Made by a program: the position numbers and the translations under genes. Shown one piece after another: positions 16,247-29,935 of a stretch of 41,024 bases of DNA. Position 1 is the stretch's first letter, and the number at the start of each line of letters is the position of its first letter. The stretch comes from Candidatus Desulfatibia profunda. GTDB lineage: Bacteria > Desulfobacterota > Desulfobacteria > Desulfobacterales > UBA11574. Under the pieces are notes generated by a model. It was not told the DNA's origin. It saw nothing but the letters and a program-made list of their open reading frames with translations, and did no database searches. The stretch is from NCBI GenBank assembly GCA_014382665.1, contig JACNJH010000125.1, forward strand, positions 1 to 41,024. Reading direction: 5' to 3'.

Positions 16247-17233
16247 TTACTTCCCTGTTGCTGATTTTTTCAGTATTGCCTTTTGCAGCTTTCTTTTAAC
16301 ATAAAGATTATAAAAACCGATCAGGATTCCTTCCGGCAAAAATATAAGCACCAGGCAAAGAAACACGCCATAGGCGATGACGTGATATTGTTTGGCAACC
16401 TGAAGTGCTTCGGAAATAATGGTGAGGATGCCGGCCCCGAAAAGACTGCCCCACAGACTTCCCATGCCCCCTACGATAACCATGGTCACCACTTCGATGG
16501 AATAATAAAAATCATATGTGCTGGGGCTGATAAAGGTGATATAATGGGCGTACAGGCTGCCGGCAATGGACGCGAATACGGCGCTTAGGACAAAAACCTT
16601 AACCTTATAACTGGAAGTATTCACACCCAGCGAATTTGCCGCCACTTCACTGCCGTGGATGGCGCGCAGCGCCCTGCCCACCCTGGAGTTAAGAAGGTTT
16701 CTGGCCGCCAGCATACACAAGAAAACAAACGTCCAGATCAGATAAAAATTTTTCAGATCACTGTCGAAGGTCACACTGCCGATGGAAAGGGCCGGGATCC
16801 CGATCAGGCCGTCGTGTCCGCCGGTGAACTGCTCCAGCTCCCCCATGAGAATTTTGATAATAATGCCGAATCCCAGGGTTGCCATCACCAGATAGTGCCC
16901 CCTTAGCTTCAAAGCGGGATATCCGATCAGAAAGGCAACAGCACCGGTGGCCAGCATCCCCGCCGCCATGGCCGGCCACAGCGGAAATCCGTAGTTGACG
17001 GTAAGGATGCCTGAAAAGTAGGCCCCCAGCCCATAAAAGGCCGCGTGCCCCAGCGAAATCTGTCCGGCGAATCCGATCAGAAGATTCAGCCCGACCACCA
17101 CGATGGCGTTCAGACCGATCACGTTCAATACGATGTAGTGGTAGCTGCTTTCCACAAAAAAAGGAAGGATGATAATGCCAAGGGCAAGGGTTACGAAACC
17201 GATAACGTCCTTTTGCTTCAAAAGAGACTTCAT
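16247..17233 (-). CDS. livM: Branched-chain amino acid-type ABC transporter permease
   Basis: A 328-residue inner-membrane permease with about nine to ten hydrophobic helices. The family segment NLLIGFAGQISLGHAAFYGLGAY near the N-terminus and the EAA-like loop AIHGSEVAANSLGVNTSSYKVKVF are present, as is GGMGSLWGSLFGA. It pairs with LivH to form the channel. ATG 17233 is chosen (GGAAAGGG upstream, one base after the livH stop); an in-frame GTG/ATG-type start at 17257 would overlap livH. It is the last gene of the operon, ahead of the long-loop terminator. Confidence 0.92.
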   Translation of the reverse strand: MKSLLKQKDVIGFVTLALGIIILPFFVESSYHYIVLNVIGLNAIVVVGLNLLIGFAGQISLGHAAFYGLGAYFSGILTVNYGFPLWPAMAAGMLATGAVAFLIGYPALKLRGHYLVMATLGFGIIIKILMGELEQFTGGHDGLIGIPALSIGSVTFDSDLKNFYLIWTFVFLCMLAARNLLNSRVGRALRAIHGSEVAANSLGVNTSSYKVKVFVLSAVFASIAGSLYAHYITFISPSTYDFYYSIEVVTMVIVGGMGSLWGSLFGAGILTIISEALQVAKQYHVIAYGVFLCLVLIFLPEGILIGFYNLYVKRKLQKAILKKSATGK

Positions 17234-17234
17234 A

Positions 17235-18122
17235 TCAGACCCTTTCCGACTCACCATACCCTAAAATTCCTTCGGGTTTCAGAAACAGCACCAAAAGGAG
17301 AATGAAAAAGGCAATGGCATCCTTGTATTGCGAGGAAATCAGCCCGGCACCGAGCGATTCCATGATACCGAGAATGGCCCCGCCTAAAATGGCGCCGGCA
17401 AAGTTCCCGTAGCCGCCCAGTATCGCCGCCGCAAAGCCTTTCAACCCCAGCATGATCCCGATATCGTAGGAGGTTGTGGAAATCGGTGCAATGATCATCC
17501 CAGCCACCGCCCCCAGGCCGCCGCTGAAGGCGAACGATAAAAGGATCATGCGATTCACCGAAATTCCAGCCAGCATTGCCGCTTTGCGATTCACCGCCGT
17601 TGCCCGCATGGCCTTGCCCATCAATGTTTTCTTAAAAAAATAATGCAACAGCAGCACCACCAGGACGGTGATGGCAAATACCCAGATATGCTGGGGCACG
17701 ATGATGGCGCCTCCCGGGAGCCGGATGGGATGGTCTCCGCTAAAAGCGGGGACCCCGACGTTATCGGTGCCCCAGACTTCCTGGGCGGTGCCCCGCAGAA
17801 CTCCGGAAATGCCGATGGTCAGGAAAATAAGGATAATAATCTCCTTTGAACGCGCATGCCGAATCGGTCCTCTTTCAATCAAGGCCCCGATCAAGGCGAC
17901 AGCGGCCATGGAGATGAAAAAAGATAGGATCATGTTGAGGTTTAAACGCACCACCAAGGTATACATGAACATGCCGCCAAGGGATATAAACTCGCACTGG
18001 GCGAAATTCACGATGCCGGTGGCGTTGTGAATGATATTAAAACCGATGGCCACGATGGCGTAGATGGCGCCGATGGTCAACCCGGTGATGATATACTGGG
18101 CAATCTGCTGGGATAGATCCAT
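17235..18122 (-). CDS. livH: Branched-chain amino acid-type ABC transporter permease
   Basis: A 295-residue permease beginning with a membrane segment after MDLSQQIAQYIITGLTIGA. It has NIIHNATGIVNFAQCEFISLGG, the KAMRATAVNRKAAMLAGISV cytoplasmic loop that contacts the ATPases, and GLKGFAAAILGGYGNFAGAILGG, all typical of LivH. It is separated from livK by 74 bases containing two hairpins, while livM follows immediately, consistent with one operon. Confidence 0.92.
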   Translation of the reverse strand: MDLSQQIAQYIITGLTIGAIYAIVAIGFNIIHNATGIVNFAQCEFISLGGMFMYTLVVRLNLNMILSFFISMAAVALIGALIERGPIRHARSKEIIILIFLTIGISGVLRGTAQEVWGTDNVGVPAFSGDHPIRLPGGAIIVPQHIWVFAITVLVVLLLHYFFKKTLMGKAMRATAVNRKAAMLAGISVNRMILLSFAFSGGLGAVAGMIIAPISTTSYDIGIMLGLKGFAAAILGGYGNFAGAILGGAILGIMESLGAGLISSQYKDAIAFFILLLVLFLKPEGILGYGESERV

Positions 18123-18132
18123 AAAAGATGCC

Positions 18133-18182
18133 GTTTGCGGACAGCCGCAAACTCAACCCCTCCCGGTATGGGAGGGGTTGAG
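18133..18182 (-). promoter_or_regulatory. Tandem hairpins between livK and livH
   Basis: Two perfect stem-loops: CTCAACCCCTCCC (18152-18164) / GGGAGGGGTTGAG (18170-18182) with a 5-base loop, and GTTTGCGG (18133-18140) / CCGCAAAC (18145-18152) with loop ACAG. No T-run follows, so they more likely protect the livK message 3' end than terminate transcription. This could give more binding protein than permease. Confidence 0.6.
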
Positions 18183-18196
18183 CCGCAGGCGTTGGT

Positions 18197-19372
18197 TTAT
18201 TCGAGCAATTTCCAGCCCCCTTTGGTGGCCTCGATCATGACGATGTCGTTCATCGACAGGCCGTTGTGATCTTCGGGACTGATGTTGTAGATGCCGCTGA
18301 TACCTACATAGCCCTTGGTATTCTCGATAGCATCCCGGATTTTAGCCCTGTCCGGACCTGCTTTCTTGATAGCGTCTACCACGATAAAGGCCGCGTCCGC
18401 CCCATAAGCCACCATGGTGCCGGGCTCCTGGTTGAATTTCTGTTTATAGGCTTTCACAAAGTCCACGATTTTCTTTTTCTGAATATCGCTGTCGGGGAGT
18501 TGATCCGCCACCACAATCTTGGTTGACGGCATCATCACACCTTCACCGGCCTCTCCGGCGACCTTCCAGAAAATGGGATCTCCGGCACCGTGGCATTCAA
18601 ACAACGGTGCTTTAATTCCCAGTTGCTTGACATTTTTGGCGACGATTCCCATGGCCGGTCCAACGGTCCAGGCGATGATCCCGTCAACCCCCTTGGCGTT
18701 GATGCGGGTCAACTGGGCGGTCATATCAACGTCTGCCGGCTCAAAGGCCTCTTCCGCCGCAACCGCGATACCATATTTCGGCGCCTGGACCATCACGTTT
18801 TTCAAACCGTCTTTCCCGAAGCCCTCGTTGGAATAGAGAAATCCAATTTTTTTGATACCGTGTTTGCGCATGTACTGGCAGATCTTGCCCATGGCATCCG
18901 CAGCTTTATAGGGGGACTTGAACGTCCATTTCGGCAGTGAATTGGGATCGTCTTTTTTCAGGGGGGCTGTCAGGATGACATCACCGCCAGAGTGCATGAA
19001 GGTGGGGATCTGCGCCTCTTCGATGAATCCCCGCATGGCCATGGCCGTACCGGTCGATGTCGGCCCGATGATCGCAACGATATCTTGCGATTCCAGAATC
19101 TTTTTCAGTACCATGACAGCCTTGGTGGGATCGCTTTCCGTGTCCCCTATCACCATTTCAAGCTGGCGTCCGTTAATACCTCCTTGGGCATTGACCTCAT
19201 CGATGGCAATCAACACCGCATCCCTCTGAGACGTTCCAATGTGGGCGGCGCGGCCGGTCAGGGCGAAAATACCCGCAATCTTAATGGGCCCGTCACAATA
19301 TCCGGCCGGCACCCCGATCATCAAGCTGACTGCCAATGCCGCTACAACGATCATCAATAATCTTTTCCTCAT
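18197..19372 (-). CDS. livK: Periplasmic substrate-binding protein of a Liv-type ABC transporter
   Basis: A 391-residue protein with a Sec signal peptide (MRKRLLMIVVAALAVSLMIG, cleavage near AGYC) and the type-1 periplasmic-binding fold: IKIAGIFALTGRAAHIGTSQRDA, VNAQGGINGRQLEMVIGDTESDP and VAIIGPTSTGTAMAM. ATG 19372 has an ideal AAGGAGG six bases upstream. The family binds branched-chain or aromatic amino acids, amides or other small acids; the ligand cannot be read from sequence. The neighbouring aryl-CoA ligase and indolepyruvate oxidoreductase suggest an aromatic or branched substrate. Confidence 0.9.
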   Translation of the reverse strand: MRKRLLMIVVAALAVSLMIGVPAGYCDGPIKIAGIFALTGRAAHIGTSQRDAVLIAIDEVNAQGGINGRQLEMVIGDTESDPTKAVMVLKKILESQDIVAIIGPTSTGTAMAMRGFIEEAQIPTFMHSGGDVILTAPLKKDDPNSLPKWTFKSPYKAADAMGKICQYMRKHGIKKIGFLYSNEGFGKDGLKNVMVQAPKYGIAVAAEEAFEPADVDMTAQLTRINAKGVDGIIAWTVGPAMGIVAKNVKQLGIKAPLFECHGAGDPIFWKVAGEAGEGVMMPSTKIVVADQLPDSDIQKKKIVDFVKAYKQKFNQEPGTMVAYGADAAFIVVDAIKKAGPDRAKIRDAIENTKGYVGISGIYNISPEDHNGLSMNDIVMIEATKGGWKLLE

Positions 19373-19464
19373 TGTTTCCCTCCTTACGATTTTCGGTGAT
19401 TTTTTTTGTGTCATTAGAACTGGTTTCAAATTTCTTGGCTGCACCTCCTTCCGTTGCGCTACAA

Positions 19465-20199
<735 letters not shown>

Positions 20200-20973
20200 T
20201 TAAAACTCCTTTCCCAGATAGGCCTCGATCACTTTAGGATGATTCTGGATCTCGGCAGAACTTCCTTCGGCGATCTTTTCTCCATAATTCAGGACTGTAA
20301 TTGTATTGGAAATTCCCATGACCAGATTCATGTCGTGTTCCACCAAAACAATGGTTATGCCCCTTGCCCTGATGTTTAAAATGGTATGGGCCATCTGCTC
20401 GGTTTCCTGCAAGTTAAGACCGGCCACCGGCTCATCCAGGAAAAGAAGCCGCGGTTCTGTCGCCAGAGAGCGGGCAATCTCGAGACGTTTCTGATCGCCA
20501 TAGGCAAGGCTGGCGGCCAACTGATCGGCCTTGGAAGCAAGGCCCAACAATCCCAGCACCTCTTCGGTTTTTTCCCGTATGATCTTCTCTTCCTTCATCA
20601 CCAGGGGAGTATGCAACAGGCAGCGCAAAAATCCGCAGCGACTCTTGGTATGAAGCCCTACCATTACATTCTCGCGAACGGTCATATGATTGAACATCTG
20701 GACGTTCTGGAATGTTCTTGCAATCCCCATAAGAGCCACCTGGTAGGGTCTTTTTTTGGATAGCTTGCGGCCCTCGAAATACATTTCTCCGGACGTGGGC
20801 GCATATACGCCGGTAATCAAGTTAATGGCTGTGGTTTTCCCTGCTCCGTTGGGACCGATAACGGAAAATATCTGGCCCTTTTCTACCTGGAAAGAGAGTC
20901 GGTTTATGGCTTGAAGACCGCCAAAATTTTTTGAAATATCTTTTACCTGAAGAATATAATCCGTCCTGCTCAT
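20200..20973 (-). CDS. livG: Liv-type ABC transporter ATP-binding protein
   Basis: A 257-residue ATPase with Walker A GPNGAGKTT, GIARTFQNVQMFNHMTVREN (Q-loop region), signature LAYGDQKRLEIARSLA, Walker B LLFLDEPVAGLN and H-loop VLVEHDM, followed by the LivG-typical tail SSAEIQNHPKVIEAYLG. It dimerises with LivF to drive uptake. It lies 82 bases after paaK and ends right at the livF start. Confidence 0.93.
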   Translation of the reverse strand: MSRTDYILQVKDISKNFGGLQAINRLSFQVEKGQIFSVIGPNGAGKTTAINLITGVYAPTSGEMYFEGRKLSKKRPYQVALMGIARTFQNVQMFNHMTVRENVMVGLHTKSRCGFLRCLLHTPLVMKEEKIIREKTEEVLGLLGLASKADQLAASLAYGDQKRLEIARSLATEPRLLFLDEPVAGLNLQETEQMAHTILNIRARGITIVLVEHDMNLVMGISNTITVLNYGEKIAEGSSAEIQNHPKVIEAYLGKEF

Positions 20974-21054: not shown

Positions 21055-22341
21055 TTAACCGTTGCGATGGTCAAACACCCGCCTGCTCTTTCTCTCGGTC
21101 CGGGGCAGGCTGCCGTGATCGACAACTTCCACCTGACTCCGCACCAGGATCTTGCGGCGGATTTCCGTCGCTACCCTTTCGGACAAATCCTTATCGCCGG
21201 ACTGGTCCGCACCCACAGCACGTTCCACCTTGATCAGCATCATATCCCGGCCGCTTTCACGTTGTTTAAGATGGATCTGATACTCACTGCCGATCCCGTG
21301 CACACGGCTCAGCACATGATCGATCTGGCTCGGGTAAATGTTTACGGCGCGGTAGGTAAACATATCATCCGTGCGGCCGAGGATACGGTCATGCCTGGGC
21401 AGCGGAACACCGCATTTGCAGGCCTGGTTTACGATACGGGTGACGTCATGGGTCCGGTATCGTATCAGCGGACTCGCTTCCTTTTTCAAGGTGGTGACTA
21501 CCAGTTCGCCTGCCTGGCCCTCAGGAACCGCTTGCAGGGTTTCAGGATCGAGAATCTCGAAAATAAAATAATCGGCCCAGTAATGGATCCCGTTGTGATA
21601 GATACAATCGAGCCCGGTCCCCGGACCATACAGTTCGGTTAATCCATAGATGTCGAAAATGTGCTCGACATCCATAAGCTCCTTGATACGGGCTCTCATG
21701 GCATCACTGTGCCGTTCGGCGCCCAAAATAATCTTTTTGACCTTTATTTTTGAAGTCAGATCGCGATGATGGATCTCTTCTGCCATCAAGAGCGCCATGG
21801 ATGCGGTCGAACAGAAAACGGTCGTTTCCATATCAACCATCATTTCACAGTGCATTTCAGCGTTGGCCGGTCCTATGGGAACCGCCATGGCCCCGAACCG
21901 CTCGCATCCGGCCTGAAAACCGACGCCGGCCGTCCATAAACCATACCCCACGGCAATCTGAACACGATCCTGGCGCGTCAGTCCCGCGAGTTCATAACAG
22001 CGGGCAAACATGTCCGCCCATGCGTCAATATCCTTCTGGGTGTAGCAGAGCACCTTGCGCTTTCCGGTAGTCCCTGAAGACGCATGAATCCGAACGATGT
22101 TCTCAAAAGGTACGGCCCGCAAAGGAAAGGGGTATTCTGCCTGCAGGTCTTCTTTGTCGGTTAGCGGCAGATGAATGATATCATCAAGAGATTGAATATC
22201 TTCGGGTTTAACGCCCGCGTTGTCGAATTTCCGCCGGTAAGCGGGCGAATTCGTATAGGCGTGGCCGACCGTCCATTTAAGACCTTCAAGTTGAATCTTT
22301 CTTAAGCTGTCTTTGGTTAAAATTTTGGGTATAAAGCTCAT
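21055..22341 (-). CDS. paaK: Phenylacetate-CoA ligase family protein (aryl acid-CoA ligase)
   Basis: A 428-residue adenylate-forming enzyme. It has the P-loop RIHASSGTTGKRKVLCYT, the YGLTELYGPG motif, YRTHDVTRI and the C-terminal GRTDDMFTYRAVNIYPSQID with RTERKSRRVFDHR. Enzymes of this type activate phenylacetate or indoleacetate to the CoA thioester with ATP. The start ATG overlaps the iorB stop (ATGA), so it is tightly coupled to the indolepyruvate oxidoreductase, whose product class is the same aryl-acetyl-CoA. The exact substrate is not determined. Confidence 0.88.
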   Translation of the reverse strand: MSFIPKILTKDSLRKIQLEGLKWTVGHAYTNSPAYRRKFDNAGVKPEDIQSLDDIIHLPLTDKEDLQAEYPFPLRAVPFENIVRIHASSGTTGKRKVLCYTQKDIDAWADMFARCYELAGLTRQDRVQIAVGYGLWTAGVGFQAGCERFGAMAVPIGPANAEMHCEMMVDMETTVFCSTASMALLMAEEIHHRDLTSKIKVKKIILGAERHSDAMRARIKELMDVEHIFDIYGLTELYGPGTGLDCIYHNGIHYWADYFIFEILDPETLQAVPEGQAGELVVTTLKKEASPLIRYRTHDVTRIVNQACKCGVPLPRHDRILGRTDDMFTYRAVNIYPSQIDHVLSRVHGIGSEYQIHLKQRESGRDMMLIKVERAVGADQSGDKDLSERVATEIRRKILVRSQVEVVDHGSLPRTERKSRRVFDHRNG

Positions 22342-22907
22342 GGTAAACTCCCATATCCGGTTTCAACCGCCTTCATGGCAGCAGCGATCATCTTTTTGTC
22401 GGCGGCTATCCGATTTTTCAGCACCGTCCGGATGTCCTTAAGGGAACAGAACAGCCGGTTGCTTTCATACCTTGTCGAACTTACGGCAATGGCAAAACCC
22501 AGCAGAATCAGATTGACGGACTTTGGACTTTTTATTTCCTGCGCCAGTTTATCGGCATCGACGGCAAAGGCCGAACCATTGAAATCAGGCACGCAATCGC
22601 CGCTGCAGTTCACTGCGGCCCAGGCGCCCGGCTTTAGATAAAAGCCGTGCTGAATCAGGCTGTCTGCCTTCAGGGCCAATAACCCGTCAGCCTGCAAGGG
22701 GCGTATCAGCGGGCTTGAAAATGTCCCCACTTTAACGTGTGATAAAACCGTCCCGCCTCTCTGGGCCATCCCGTGAGTTTCAGAAGTAAACACTGAAAAA
22801 CCTTTCATGATCGCCGCTTCCGCCAGAAGTCGTGTAACAAAGAGAACGCCCTGGCCGCCCACCCCGCTGATCACGATCTGCTGTTTTAAGGATTTCGTCA
22901 TAACCAT
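22338..22907 (-). CDS. iorB: Indolepyruvate:ferredoxin oxidoreductase, beta (gamma-domain) subunit
   Basis: A 189-residue subunit with QIVISGVGGQGVLFVTRLLAE and the ETHGMAQRGGTVLSHVKVG loop, the CoA-binding gamma-type domain of 2-oxoacid:ferredoxin oxidoreductases. With IorA it interconverts aryl pyruvates and aryl-acetyl-CoA with reduced ferredoxin. ATGs at 22907 and 22901 are both possible; no strong ribosome binding site is seen. It lies 52 bases after iorA and overlaps paaK. Confidence 0.9.
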   Translation of the reverse strand: MVMTKSLKQQIVISGVGGQGVLFVTRLLAEAAIMKGFSVFTSETHGMAQRGGTVLSHVKVGTFSSPLIRPLQADGLLALKADSLIQHGFYLKPGAWAAVNCSGDCVPDFNGSAFAVDADKLAQEIKSPKSVNLILLGFAIAVSSTRYESNRLFCSLKDIRTVLKNRIAADKKMIAAAMKAVETGYGSLP

Positions 22908-22959: not shown

Positions 22960-24789
22960 TTATGCTGAAAGATCACGCTCAACTTCCCTGATGGACCCCT
23001 TCGGACAAACATATCGGCATACGCCGCATCCGCTGCACAATATCGGATCGATGTGCACCTGTTTTTCGGCCGCATTCAAAAGGAGTGCCGGGCATTCAAA
23101 ATGGTTGATGCAATACCCGCAGCCGTCGCAGTCATCGCTGACTGCAACCCGGAGATACTGCCGCTTGAACGCATCTTTCCGGAGTTTGTCAATCAGGCAG
23201 GGATGGCGGGCGATAACCACCGCCGGTCCGTGCTGCCGGCTGTATTTGACGGCTTTTTTCAACAACCCGATAAATTCCGGCAGGTGATAAGGATCACCCG
23301 CGCGGCAGAATTTTACACCGCATCCGCGCACAAGGCTTTCAAGGTCGACGGCCGCCAAGGTCTCGCCCCCGGCACCGATTCCTGTCGCCGGCGTCGGCTG
23401 GTTGCCGGTCATGGCCGTGGTCTGGTTATCCAGAATCACAAGCACGAAACGCACCTTTTGAACCACCGCATCAATCAGGGCCGGAACCCCGGCATGAAAA
23501 AACGTGGAATCCCCGATGGTCGCCACTATGTCCGGCTTTTTTTTCTCACCTTTGTAGGCATGATAAAAGCCGGCCGCCTGACTGACGGCGGCTCCCATGC
23601 AGAGTACGGTATCCACCGCACCAAGGTTGAGTCCCAGCGTATAACAGCCGATATCGCTGGTATAGATGCCTTTGGGTGCGGCCTTCTTGATTGCAAAAAA
23701 GCTGGCCCGATGGGGACAACCCGCACAGAGCGTTGGACGTTTTCCTGCGGCGGCCGGCAAATGCACCCGTGCGCTCGGCATACCTGCAAATTCAGCTATG
23801 ATGTCTTGAATGATTTCAGGGAGAAGCTCTCCGACATTCGGCACCGTATGTGTCAATTTGCCCCTGACACGATGGCGATCCGCCAGTTGCATTTCAATAA
23901 CGGCCGTGGTCTCTTCCAGCACCAGAATTTCATCGTAGCTGTCGATCAGGTGCGAAATGAATTCCGCATGCAGCGGATACGGCTGCAACACTTGGTAAAA
24001 CGGAAGCGCGTCCCAGAGGTTCAGATCTTTCATGATTTCTTTGGCATGGGCCACGGCAACACCGGAGGCAACCACAGCTCCGGGCGCATTTGCCTGTTGA
24101 TTGAGCCTAAGCGGTGCCGTCTTGGGGTATGCTGAAATGGCTTTGAGCTTTTTCTCCAGCGCCTGGTGCAAAACAAAACGGAATTTGGGGGTTGCGGCCC
24201 AGCGCATGGGGTCTTTTTCAAAGCCGGCGCTTCTTTTTACGGCCTGAATATCCGCCGTGGGAATATCCTGGCGGGCGTGACAAACCCGTGTGGTCGGCCG
24301 CAGCATAACGGGAATCTCAAAGGTTTCCGAAAGCTCATAGGCTGCGGCCACCATCGCTTTGGCCTGCAAGGGGGAATCCGGATCAAGAACCGGAATCTTG
24401 GCCATCATGGCCATCAGGCGACTGTCCTGTTCGGTCTGTGAAGAATGCAGTCCCGGGTCGTCGGCGCTGATGACGATAAAACCGCCTTTGACGCCCAGAT
24501 AGGCGGCACTCATGAGGGGATCGGAGGCCACATTGAGCCCGACCTGCTTCATACTGACCGCCGCCCGTAAACCGGCCATACTCCCCGCATAGGCAATCTC
24601 AAAAGCGACCTTCTCGTTTACCGCCCACTGAAGATGCATTGAATTCAGGCTGTCTTTGTGCCACTGTGTCAGAGAAGACAGAATTTCTGACGCCGGGGTG
24701 CCGGGATATGAAGTCGCAACGGCACAGCCGTTTTCCACCAGTCCGCGCGCAATGGCTTCATTCCCCAGCATTAATTGCCGCTTGGTCAC
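22960..24789 (-). CDS. iorA: Indolepyruvate:ferredoxin oxidoreductase, alpha subunit
   Basis: A 609-residue subunit. The N-terminal pyruvate-binding domain (LMLGNEAIARGLVENG, TSYPGTPASEI) is followed by the TPP domain (CAGCPHRASFFAI, IGDSTFFHAG, ILDNQTTAMTG) and a C-terminal 2x[4Fe-4S] ferredoxin domain: CDGCGYCINHFECP and CSGCGVCRYVCP. The first cluster has a longer gap before its last Cys, usual in IorA. The start is GTG at 24789, with GGAGG (24800-24796). The upstream leader carries a Trp-rich peptide and a terminator, so expression is probably controlled by attenuation. Confidence 0.93.
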   Translation of the reverse strand: MTKRQLMLGNEAIARGLVENGCAVATSYPGTPASEILSSLTQWHKDSLNSMHLQWAVNEKVAFEIAYAGSMAGLRAAVSMKQVGLNVASDPLMSAAYLGVKGGFIVISADDPGLHSSQTEQDSRLMAMMAKIPVLDPDSPLQAKAMVAAAYELSETFEIPVMLRPTTRVCHARQDIPTADIQAVKRSAGFEKDPMRWAATPKFRFVLHQALEKKLKAISAYPKTAPLRLNQQANAPGAVVASGVAVAHAKEIMKDLNLWDALPFYQVLQPYPLHAEFISHLIDSYDEILVLEETTAVIEMQLADRHRVRGKLTHTVPNVGELLPEIIQDIIAEFAGMPSARVHLPAAAGKRPTLCAGCPHRASFFAIKKAAPKGIYTSDIGCYTLGLNLGAVDTVLCMGAAVSQAAGFYHAYKGEKKKPDIVATIGDSTFFHAGVPALIDAVVQKVRFVLVILDNQTTAMTGNQPTPATGIGAGGETLAAVDLESLVRGCGVKFCRAGDPYHLPEFIGLLKKAVKYSRQHGPAVVIARHPCLIDKLRKDAFKRQYLRVAVSDDCDGCGYCINHFECPALLLNAAEKQVHIDPILCSGCGVCRYVCPKGSIREVERDLSA

Positions 24790-24807
24790 CTATTGCCTCC
24801 AGTGTAT

Positions 24808-24846
24808 AAAAAAAGCCAGTGTTTCAGCAGAAGCACCGGCCTTTTT
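24808..24846 (-). terminator. Intrinsic terminator (attenuator) directly in front of iorA
   Basis: On the minus strand: AAAAAGGCCGGTG (24846-24834), a 12-base loop CTTCTGCTGAAA, then CACTGGCTTTTTTT (24821-24808). The stem is 13 bp including two G-U pairs, followed by a T7 run. The T-run ends seven bases before the iorA GGAGG. A transcript carrying the iorA ribosome binding site must therefore have passed this terminator. Confidence 0.82.
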
Positions 24847-24884
24847 AAAAAAAGAGCCATGAGCCACTTCTGCGTCGTTTTGCC

Positions 24885-24961
24885 GAAGCTTCTCACAGCT
24901 CTGAATGGTTACGGTTGATTATTCAGGGTGGTGAGCAAGCTTCACGACCTTTGCCACCACC
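24885..24961 (-). promoter_or_regulatory. Competing leader hairpins of the iorA attenuator
   Basis: Segment 2:3 on the minus strand: GAAGCTTGCTCAC (24943-24931) pairs with GTGAGAAGCTTC (24896-24885), 12 bp with one bulged G, extended inside by TGAAT/ATTCA. Segment 1:2: GGTGGTG (24961-24955), which lies in the Trp codons, pairs with CACCACC (24933-24927), overlapping segment 2. The two pairings exclude each other. A third stretch, GCAGAAG (24873-24867 area), can pair with CTTCTGC in the terminator loop. Confidence 0.6.
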
Positions 24962-24980
24962 GCCAAAACATGGATATCAT
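24942..24980 (-). CDS. Trp-rich leader peptide upstream of iorA
   Basis: A 12-codon frame, ATG ATA TCC ATG TTT TGG and so on, encoding MISMFWRWWQRS and a TGA stop. Three of 12 residues are Trp and one Phe, and the end WWQRS resembles the WWRTS end of enterobacterial TrpL. It precedes mutually exclusive hairpins and a terminator, in front of a gene for indolepyruvate metabolism. Ribosome stalling at the Trp codons would cover segment 1 and favour the 2:3 hairpin. The ribosome binding site is weak (AGAAACGACC). Function is inference from layout and composition. Confidence 0.62.
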   Translation of the reverse strand: MISMFWRWWQRS

Positions 24981-25117
24981 GGTCGTTTCTAGAGTGCGCG
25001 CTTTAAAACGCCGACATTCAGTGCCCGGTCGACTTCGAATTTAGCGGTTAAGTAAAATTTATGGGCGTCGAACGCATTAAAAAAACTAATTCCAATTACC
25101 CAAATCGAGTCTTTTTG

Positions 25118-25789
25118 TCAAGAGTCGATTGCAGTTTTGGCATTCTCCAAATCATGAATCCATTTTTGGACCCGATCCTTTCCATAGGCCTTTTCCCATG
25201 CCGCCAGAATGGTATCCACAGGAATATCCGCATAAGTCCCGTGATATTCCAGATACTCCATGAACTGTTTTTTTTCCATATTGTAGGGATGGAAAATCGA
25301 ATCGTCCCGGCCGTTGAATTCAAGCGGGGCCACATGATGCTTTTGGCACAGCTCGGCATTAAAAGTGGGGGTTGCCTTGACCCATTTATCTTCAAGAAAA
25401 AACTCCGTGAATCCGTGATAGACGAACACGTCGGAACCGATAAAATCGATCAGCTTCGGAGTGGCAAGATGGTTTCGAACCGTGCCGAAACCGATTCTCG
25501 AGGGGATGCCGCCGGCCCTTCCCAGCGCACAAAGCAGCGCTGCTTTGCTGACGCAATATCCCCTGCCGCTTTTGAGCACATTGCTGGCACGGTAGTGTTC
25601 CGGAAGATAGAACGGGTAATAGGGATCATACCAGATATCGTCTCGCACGGCATAATAGAGTTTCACGGCCATGGCGACGGAATCTCGACCTGCGCCGCTC
25701 ACCTTGGCGTTGGCATATTCAATAATGCTGGGATGATCACTGTCGATGATGGCCGTTGGAGCAAAGTATGTTTTGTCAATATTTTTCAT
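25118..25789 (-). CDS. Transglutaminase-like (papain-fold) protein
   Basis: A 223-residue cytoplasmic protein. The core has the nucleophile in GRGYCVSKAALLCALGRAGG (Cys79) and His125 in VYHGFTEFFLEDKWVKATPTFN; the third triad residue, usually Asp in a W-x-x-x-D-P pattern, is not conserved (KATP). Relatives are annotated as transglutaminase-like and act as peptidases or are uncharacterised. No signal peptide. It is upstream of iorA on the same strand but separated by a terminator, so it is only loosely linked to that operon. Confidence 0.75.
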   Translation of the reverse strand: MKNIDKTYFAPTAIIDSDHPSIIEYANAKVSGAGRDSVAMAVKLYYAVRDDIWYDPYYPFYLPEHYRASNVLKSGRGYCVSKAALLCALGRAGGIPSRIGFGTVRNHLATPKLIDFIGSDVFVYHGFTEFFLEDKWVKATPTFNAELCQKHHVAPLEFNGRDDSIFHPYNMEKKQFMEYLEYHGTYADIPVDTILAAWEKAYGKDRVQKWIHDLENAKTAIDS

Positions 25790-29638: not shown

Positions 29639-29935
29639 ATGCGGAAGAGAATAAAGCTATATCTGCTAACGGCCGTTTTAGTGGCTGCCGGATATTTCTT
29701 GTTGAGCTATCACATTATATATTTTGGCAATACTATCAAACTAATACATAAATCAAACCTGACTTCGGAGTATACCTTCATCTGGGCTAAAAACCAAAGC
29801 ATGGAGTCCATCCTCAGAATCGATACCCTGCGGGAAGCGGGCCTTGGAGATGTTCTGGTGGAAATGGGGAAATTGAGCAAGGAGGAAAAAGACTTTCTGG
29901 AACAAAAATTTAATTCCGATCCAATCTATTACTAG
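29639..29935 (+). CDS. Small single-span membrane protein, unknown function
   Basis: A 98-residue protein with a positively charged start (MRKRIKLY), one hydrophobic helix (residues about 8-28, LLTAVLVAAGYFLLSYHIIY) and a soluble C-terminal part with the pattern MGKLSKEEKDFLEQKF. It resembles small inner-membrane proteins common in Desulfobacterota, but I do not recognise a named family. AAAGGA lies upstream of the ATG. Its TAG stop belongs to the dispersed repeat at 29932-29966. Confidence 0.65.
   Translation: MRKRIKLYLLTAVLVAAGYFLLSYHIIYFGNTIKLIHKSNLTSEYTFIWAKNQSMESILRIDTLREAGLGDVLVEMGKLSKEEKDFLEQKFNSDPIYY

Follow-up and report, generated by a model that had tools for sequence, protein, structure and literature searches.

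The minus-strand leader of iorA (25121-24790) in Candidatus Desulfatibia profunda appears to be a ribosome-mediated, tryptophan (Trp)-sensing transcription attenuator that controls a Trp-salvage operon, iorA-iorB-paaK-livGFKHM, and we give this reading a probability of roughly 0.77. At the level of sequence, the case is made by the leader peptide and its conservation, by two sets of alternative pairings, and by an element that is common to trp and aromatic genes. The host genome comprises 3.85 Mb in 293 contigs, and coordinates are those of the window, the whole 41,024-nucleotide stretch of DNA that was analysed; the named relatives from a protein search are Desulfobacterales and other Desulfobacterota. 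The features of the leader and operon are as follows:

25093-25121, minus strand: candidate promoter, with TTGACA (25121-25116), a 17-base spacer, and a weak -10 box, TAATTG (25098-25093)
24942-24980, minus strand: leader peptide ORF, MISMFWRWWQRS, from ATG (24980) to TGA (24944-24942)
24955-24961, minus strand: segment 1, containing Trp codons, which pairs with segment 2
24927-24943, minus strand: segment 2, of which 24933-24927 pairs with segment 1 and 24943-24931 with segment 3
24885-24902, minus strand: segment 3, pairing either with segment 2 (through 24896-24885) or with segment 4
24847-24902, minus strand: terminator T1, hairpin 3:4 (24902-24853) with a T-run to 24847, -26.7 kcal/mol
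24865-24873, minus strand: segment 4, which pairs with segment 5 in the antitermination state
24833-24827, minus strand: the part of segment 5 that pairs with segment 4
24808-24843, minus strand: terminator T2, hairpin 5:6 (24843-24812) with a T-run at 24814-24808, -16.2 kcal/mol
22960-24789, minus strand: iorA, indolepyruvate:ferredoxin oxidoreductase (IOR) alpha subunit, with GTG start at 24789 and GGAGG at 24800-24796
22338-22907, minus strand: iorB (NF004916, E 9e-62, below cut-off; PF01558)
21055-22341, minus strand: gene for a PaaK-like aryl-CoA ligase (TIGR02155, E 6.8e-122, below cut-off)
16247-20973, minus strand: livG, livF, livK, livH, and livM, a branched-chain-type ABC importer (NCBIfam matches below cut-offs)

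The operon is ordered iorA-iorB-paaK-livG-livF-livK-livH-livM. The iorA product matches TIGR03336 over the full model length (E 4.3e-195), scoring 649.5 bits, slightly below the cut-off of 650.9, and since many family scores fall under the curated cut-offs, the gene names in the operon are approximate. The livGFKHM order after paaK is repeated in loci L134-L136, and in many loci of relatives paaK follows iorA-iorB and is itself followed by an ABC importer or a TRAP importer. Some leader-bearing operons have no paaK beside iorB and some leader-paaK operons have no iorAB, so that a single operon does not always hold the whole salvage pathway.

We propose that, with ample Trp-tRNA, the leader ribosome would reach the stop codon and cover segment 2, upon which hairpins 3:4 and 5:6 would form and RNA polymerase would terminate. 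When Trp-tRNA is short, the ribosome would stall on the UGG codons and leave segment 2 free to pair with segment 3; segment 4, released, would pair with segment 5, and both terminators would be disarmed. The operon products would import an aryl acid, probably indoleacetate, which the PaaK-like ligase would activate to indoleacetyl-CoA; IorAB with reduced ferredoxin would carboxylate this to indolepyruvate, and transamination would yield Trp.

The first-pass annotation had pointed to a Trp-rich peptide in the iorA leader, and the ORF is present, running from ATG 24980 to TGA 24942 with Trp codons at 24965, 24959, and 24956 on the minus strand. The leaders of relatives align with the first ATG (24980), so the peptide is likely twelve residues long; its presumed translation would start from a weak ribosome binding site, a caveat raised at the outset that proves real. 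Alignment of orthologous iorA leaders, a check suggested by the same annotation, reveals retained Trp-rich frames at the equivalent position (e.g. LWCWWW, FWWWW, CWWWWW), with start codon, in-frame TGG runs, and stop recurring although the leader flanks drift. Trp accounts for 84 of the 332 residues in 24 iorA leader peptides. The short ORF with clustered Trp codons that characterizes a ribosome-mediated Trp attenuator is found, when scored as 8-30 residues with three Trp in five codons, in 19 of 59 iorA upstream regions (which include a few IOR paralogues or near-duplicates) versus 5 of 5900 dinucleotide shuffles.

All 24 leaders examined have TTGACA 38-155 bases ahead of the leader start, with a poorly conserved -10; the candidate promoter at 25121-25093 is not reported by a consensus promoter scan of the window. 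The transglutaminase-like gene upstream (25118-25789) has a stop codon that falls within the -35 hexamer (25116-25121 of the window). Elsewhere in the window, a short plus-strand ORF at 29850, MFWWKWGN, lies inside a longer ORF and is probably a chance occurrence.

The whole leader folds with a minimum free energy of -70.3 kcal/mol (z = -4.5), and none of 200 shuffles folds as well. Hairpins 1:2 (24961-24955 with 24933-24927) and 2:3 (24943-24931 with 24896-24885; helix energy -19.7 kcal/mol) share bases and are therefore mutually exclusive, as they had been read at first; the terminator called then also stands, the T-run of T2 ending at 24808, seven bases upstream of the iorA GGAGG (24800-24796). 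Intrinsic terminators precede the first structural gene at both 24843-24808 and 24902-24847, and neither T1 nor T2 is in the minus-strand list of a simple terminator scan. Relatives differ in T1: some have a short T-run or none at all, and in some this middle hairpin is the sole terminator. The trp-type parts that the first-pass annotation had enumerated are present, and its list lacked the T1 hairpin and the 4:5 pairing as well as the conserved -35 box; the layout is that of an attenuator, as proposed, with a richer geometry of three hairpins and two possible terminators. The 4:5 pairing links T1 and T2, and 2:3 together with 4:5 would disarm both.

With five helices taken from the window sequence and scored over 18 aligned leaders, the paired cells amount to 93.9% for 2:3, 91% for 1:2, 88% for 3:4, 87% for 5:6, and 72% for 4:5, with both-side changes at four pairs in 2:3 and six in 5:6. 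The termination and antitermination structures beat every slid control and all 500 shuffles (paired cells and covariation score), in a comparison where the structures derive from one of the aligned sequences and the shuffles ignore relatedness. The mutually exclusive terminator and antiterminator pairings, proposed initially from a single sequence, are thus conserved across 18 aligned iorA leaders. Coevolution was assessed by swapping segments between species among ten representatives, with a permutation that cancels row and column effects. For 4:5, own segments average -14.2 versus -10.2 kcal/mol for swapped segments (p < 1/20000); 5:6 (p 5e-5) and 3:4 (p 0.011) also coevolve, 1:2 is borderline (p 0.05), and coevolution of 2:3 is not seen in these cross-species swaps (p 0.34), in which its sequences are too alike to tell. 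Segments 4 and 5 are thus real partners, and the leader follows his attenuators in its three-hairpin plan (1:2, 3:4, and 5:6 versus 2:3 and 4:5) instead of the plain trp plan, with the third hairpin missing in some relatives. An RNA switch is well supported by these sequence comparisons, and the conserved Trp frames and conserved alternative pairings bear out the initial reading of a Trp attenuator.

The same element stands before other genes. In the host genome, a covariance model built solely on iorA leaders picks out a Trp leader (...YVCWWWQ...) and terminator belonging to trpE, and another (...QAWCWWWK...), also with a terminator, at a divergent DAHP synthase gene. The model has matches in 63 of 291 genomes of the class, and the loci that were read have iorA, trpB2, trpB2 and then iorA, or a TRAP transporter behind the element, or, in six genomes, paaK directly; a phylum-wide search matched 20 of 395 genomes, with iorA, paaK, trpB2, trpE, trpD, DAHP synthase, or a shikimate-entry gene downstream. 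In L143 (826-4242) trpB2 is directly upstream of iorA behind one Trp leader, an adjacency also seen in L042 and L070, and in L140 (5231-8276) a TRAP transporter lies behind the Trp leader MNAERQKYYWWWRGF with no adjacent iorA or paaK, which suggests Trp or a Trp precursor as its cargo. In a Syntrophales group the leaders are of the form WGWWWW...GGEVCP and have one terminator, the Trp run being kept in a different hairpin arrangement. Matches in L150, L190, and L199 are probably false; barring these three, and one match in L184 that has no matched downstream gene, the targets read either make or import Trp or aromatic precursors, or are the iorA/paaK-type genes in question.

A search of the host genome with the pattern TGGNNNTGGTGG and a spaced T-run gave 13 matches, the known leaders not among them, and one with TGSTGGTGGTGG gave six, of which two are the trpE and DAHP synthase leaders and four lie within apparent coding sequence. 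A fragment on contig C118 that was matched as trpB reads as a threonine dehydratase-like gene and is not the missing trpB end. We also note that in L149 (1-4206; G172:C66) a Phe/Tyr/Trp-rich leader, GGFYYTYFWWYY, lies before an ADH synthase gene, which is followed by genes for 3-dehydroquinate synthase II and chorismate mutase-prephenate dehydratase, and that in L198 (G627:C1) the Phe/Tyr/Trp-rich leader SFYFSYYYFW is likewise before an ADH synthase gene; both are possible mixed aromatic attenuators.

With somewhat less confidence than we place in the iorA attenuator, we favor a Trp-starvation regulon of the Desulfobacterota, in which one attenuator family would control trpE and DAHP synthase for de novo synthesis, trpB2 for indole salvage, and transporter-PaaK-IorAB for reductive indoleacetate salvage, with two terminators disarmed sequentially by base-pair exchanges. 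The first-pass annotation had suggested that IorAB runs in the biosynthetic direction, and the presence of the element before trpE, DAHP synthase, trpB2, paaK, and a TRAP transporter speaks for this; the direction itself is judged from regulation and gene company, by which IorAB probably helps to make Trp here. It is unlikely, in our estimation, that the attenuator is real and Trp-sensing while IorAB-PaaK serves a wider aromatic acid metabolism (for example Phe and Tyr from arylacetates, or aromatic amino acid uptake), Trp being only the limiting amino acid that is sensed. Several aryl acids are substrates of the IOR and PaaK families, the transporter type varies between loci, and mixed Phe/Tyr/Trp leaders precede a shikimate-entry operon in relatives, all of which would suit such a role; however, the 24 iorA leader peptides have 84 Trp codons versus 18 for Phe and 3 for Tyr, and the element is also found before trpB2 and trpE.

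IOR is usually viewed as breaking amino acids down, and the iorA leader points to the making of Trp. The direction of IOR-PaaK is not readable from genes alone, according to a paper on Loki- and Thorarchaeota (PMC6737245); a Trp attenuator before an IOR-PaaK operon would report the cell's own choice of direction and makes the question directly testable. In methanogens it is established that aryl-CoA ligase and IOR assimilate indoleacetate and phenylacetate into aromatic amino acids (cited in PMC6737245 and PMC4162585). The operon described here has the same combination of aryl-CoA ligase and IOR but is bacterial, includes an importer, and is under a Trp attenuator, its reductive direction being one that we infer. 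In related sulfate reducers, IOR paralogues are produced when the cells grow on phenylpyruvate, which is a catabolic use, and IorA3B3 of Desulfococcus multivorans, which is phenylpyruvate-induced, has been assigned to degradation (PMC5109826). The latter is similar in that an IOR homologue and an arylacetate-related TRAP importer occur in a related sulfate reducer (PMC5109826), and differs from the iorA leader operon in being induced by the growth substrate; a Trp attenuator may separate the anabolic from the catabolic uses of IOR, the iorAB-paaK operon keeping company with Trp synthesis. If this is true, indoleacetate in anoxic sediments is a likely Trp source for sulfate reducers, substrates are suggested for orphan ABC and TRAP importers, and the leaders form a new and naturally varied attenuator set. 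No described Trp attenuator on iorA or on the reductive IOR pathway was found in the open-access papers searched, which leave out most subscription journals, and the novelty is provisional.

Like the Escherichia coli trp attenuator, the iorA leader has a Trp-rich leader peptide, mutually exclusive 1:2, 2:3, and 3:4 pairings, and an intrinsic terminator before the structural genes, but it controls iorAB-paaK-transporter genes rather than trpEDCBA and adds a second terminator hairpin and the 4:5 pairing. The E. coli tnaC leader also encodes a Trp-containing peptide and responds to excess Trp via an arrest peptide and Rho, whereas the iorA leader has intrinsic hairpins and a short, variable peptide. 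The additional hairpin that separates the first one from the terminator is reminiscent of that described for the Salmonella his leader (PMC1183508), although the iorA leader would sense Trp and not His, and a T-run closes its middle hairpin as well.

Segment 2 begins inside the leader stop codon, and the distance from the Trp codons to that stop is 12-21 bases. In equilibrium folding of the free RNA with segment 5 just made, a ribosome on a Trp codon gives probabilities of 1.00 for both 2:3 and 4:5, a ribosome at the stop codon gives 0.00 for 2:3 and 0.04 for 4:5, and the absence of translation gives 0.13 for each. At the T1 point equilibrium folding prefers 3:4, and once segment 6 is made it prefers both terminators in every ribosome state, even if segment 2 is unoccupied; antitermination must therefore be under kinetic control, the accepted view for classical attenuators. 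Folding by ribosome position is the weakest computed step of the case, and the polarity, in which Trp shortage would turn the operon on, is suggested by the arrangement of the leader. The opposite logic, in which plentiful Trp raises expression of a catabolic operon and IorAB oxidizes indolepyruvate, is distinctly improbable. Catabolic IOR paralogues are phenylpyruvate-induced in D. multivorans (PMC5109826), and by eye segment 3 might also pair, imperfectly, with the 5' arm of T2, a pairing that could conceivably reverse the switch; against this, the Trp codons come before segment 2 and the stop codon lies partly within it, the order seen in starvation-induced attenuators, 4:5 coevolves, and the element is common to trpE, DAHP synthase, and trpB2.

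No leader was detected in about 40 of the 59 iorA upstream regions, Desulfosarcina ones included, and a T2-like hairpin without a leader peptide is retained upstream of iorA in L035 (Desulfonema magnum), L022, and L048. A second IOR pair (L082 2307-4838; G000:C184), about 39% identical, occurs in nearly all relatives searched, and no Trp-rich leader lies upstream of this copy on contig C184. No Rfam family, T-box included, matches the window at gathering score and a relaxed E-value gave no leader family; RF00513 Trp_leader has no match in 24780-25060, and T-box none in the leader, even up to E 10. We give hardly any credence to the idea that the hairpins and TGG repeats are conserved on other grounds, as a constitutive double terminator or as a small RNA, with an incidental peptide. 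GGTGG does pair with CCACC, so that pairing with segment 2 constrains part of the Trp run, and T2-like hairpins do persist in leaderless loci, but start codon, TGG runs, and stop recur in frame amid drifting flanks, most leaders retain Trp codons ahead of the stretch that pairs, and the Syntrophales-group leaders keep the Trp run under their different hairpin arrangement. The Desulfonema magnum locus has an inverted repeat at the expected leader site.
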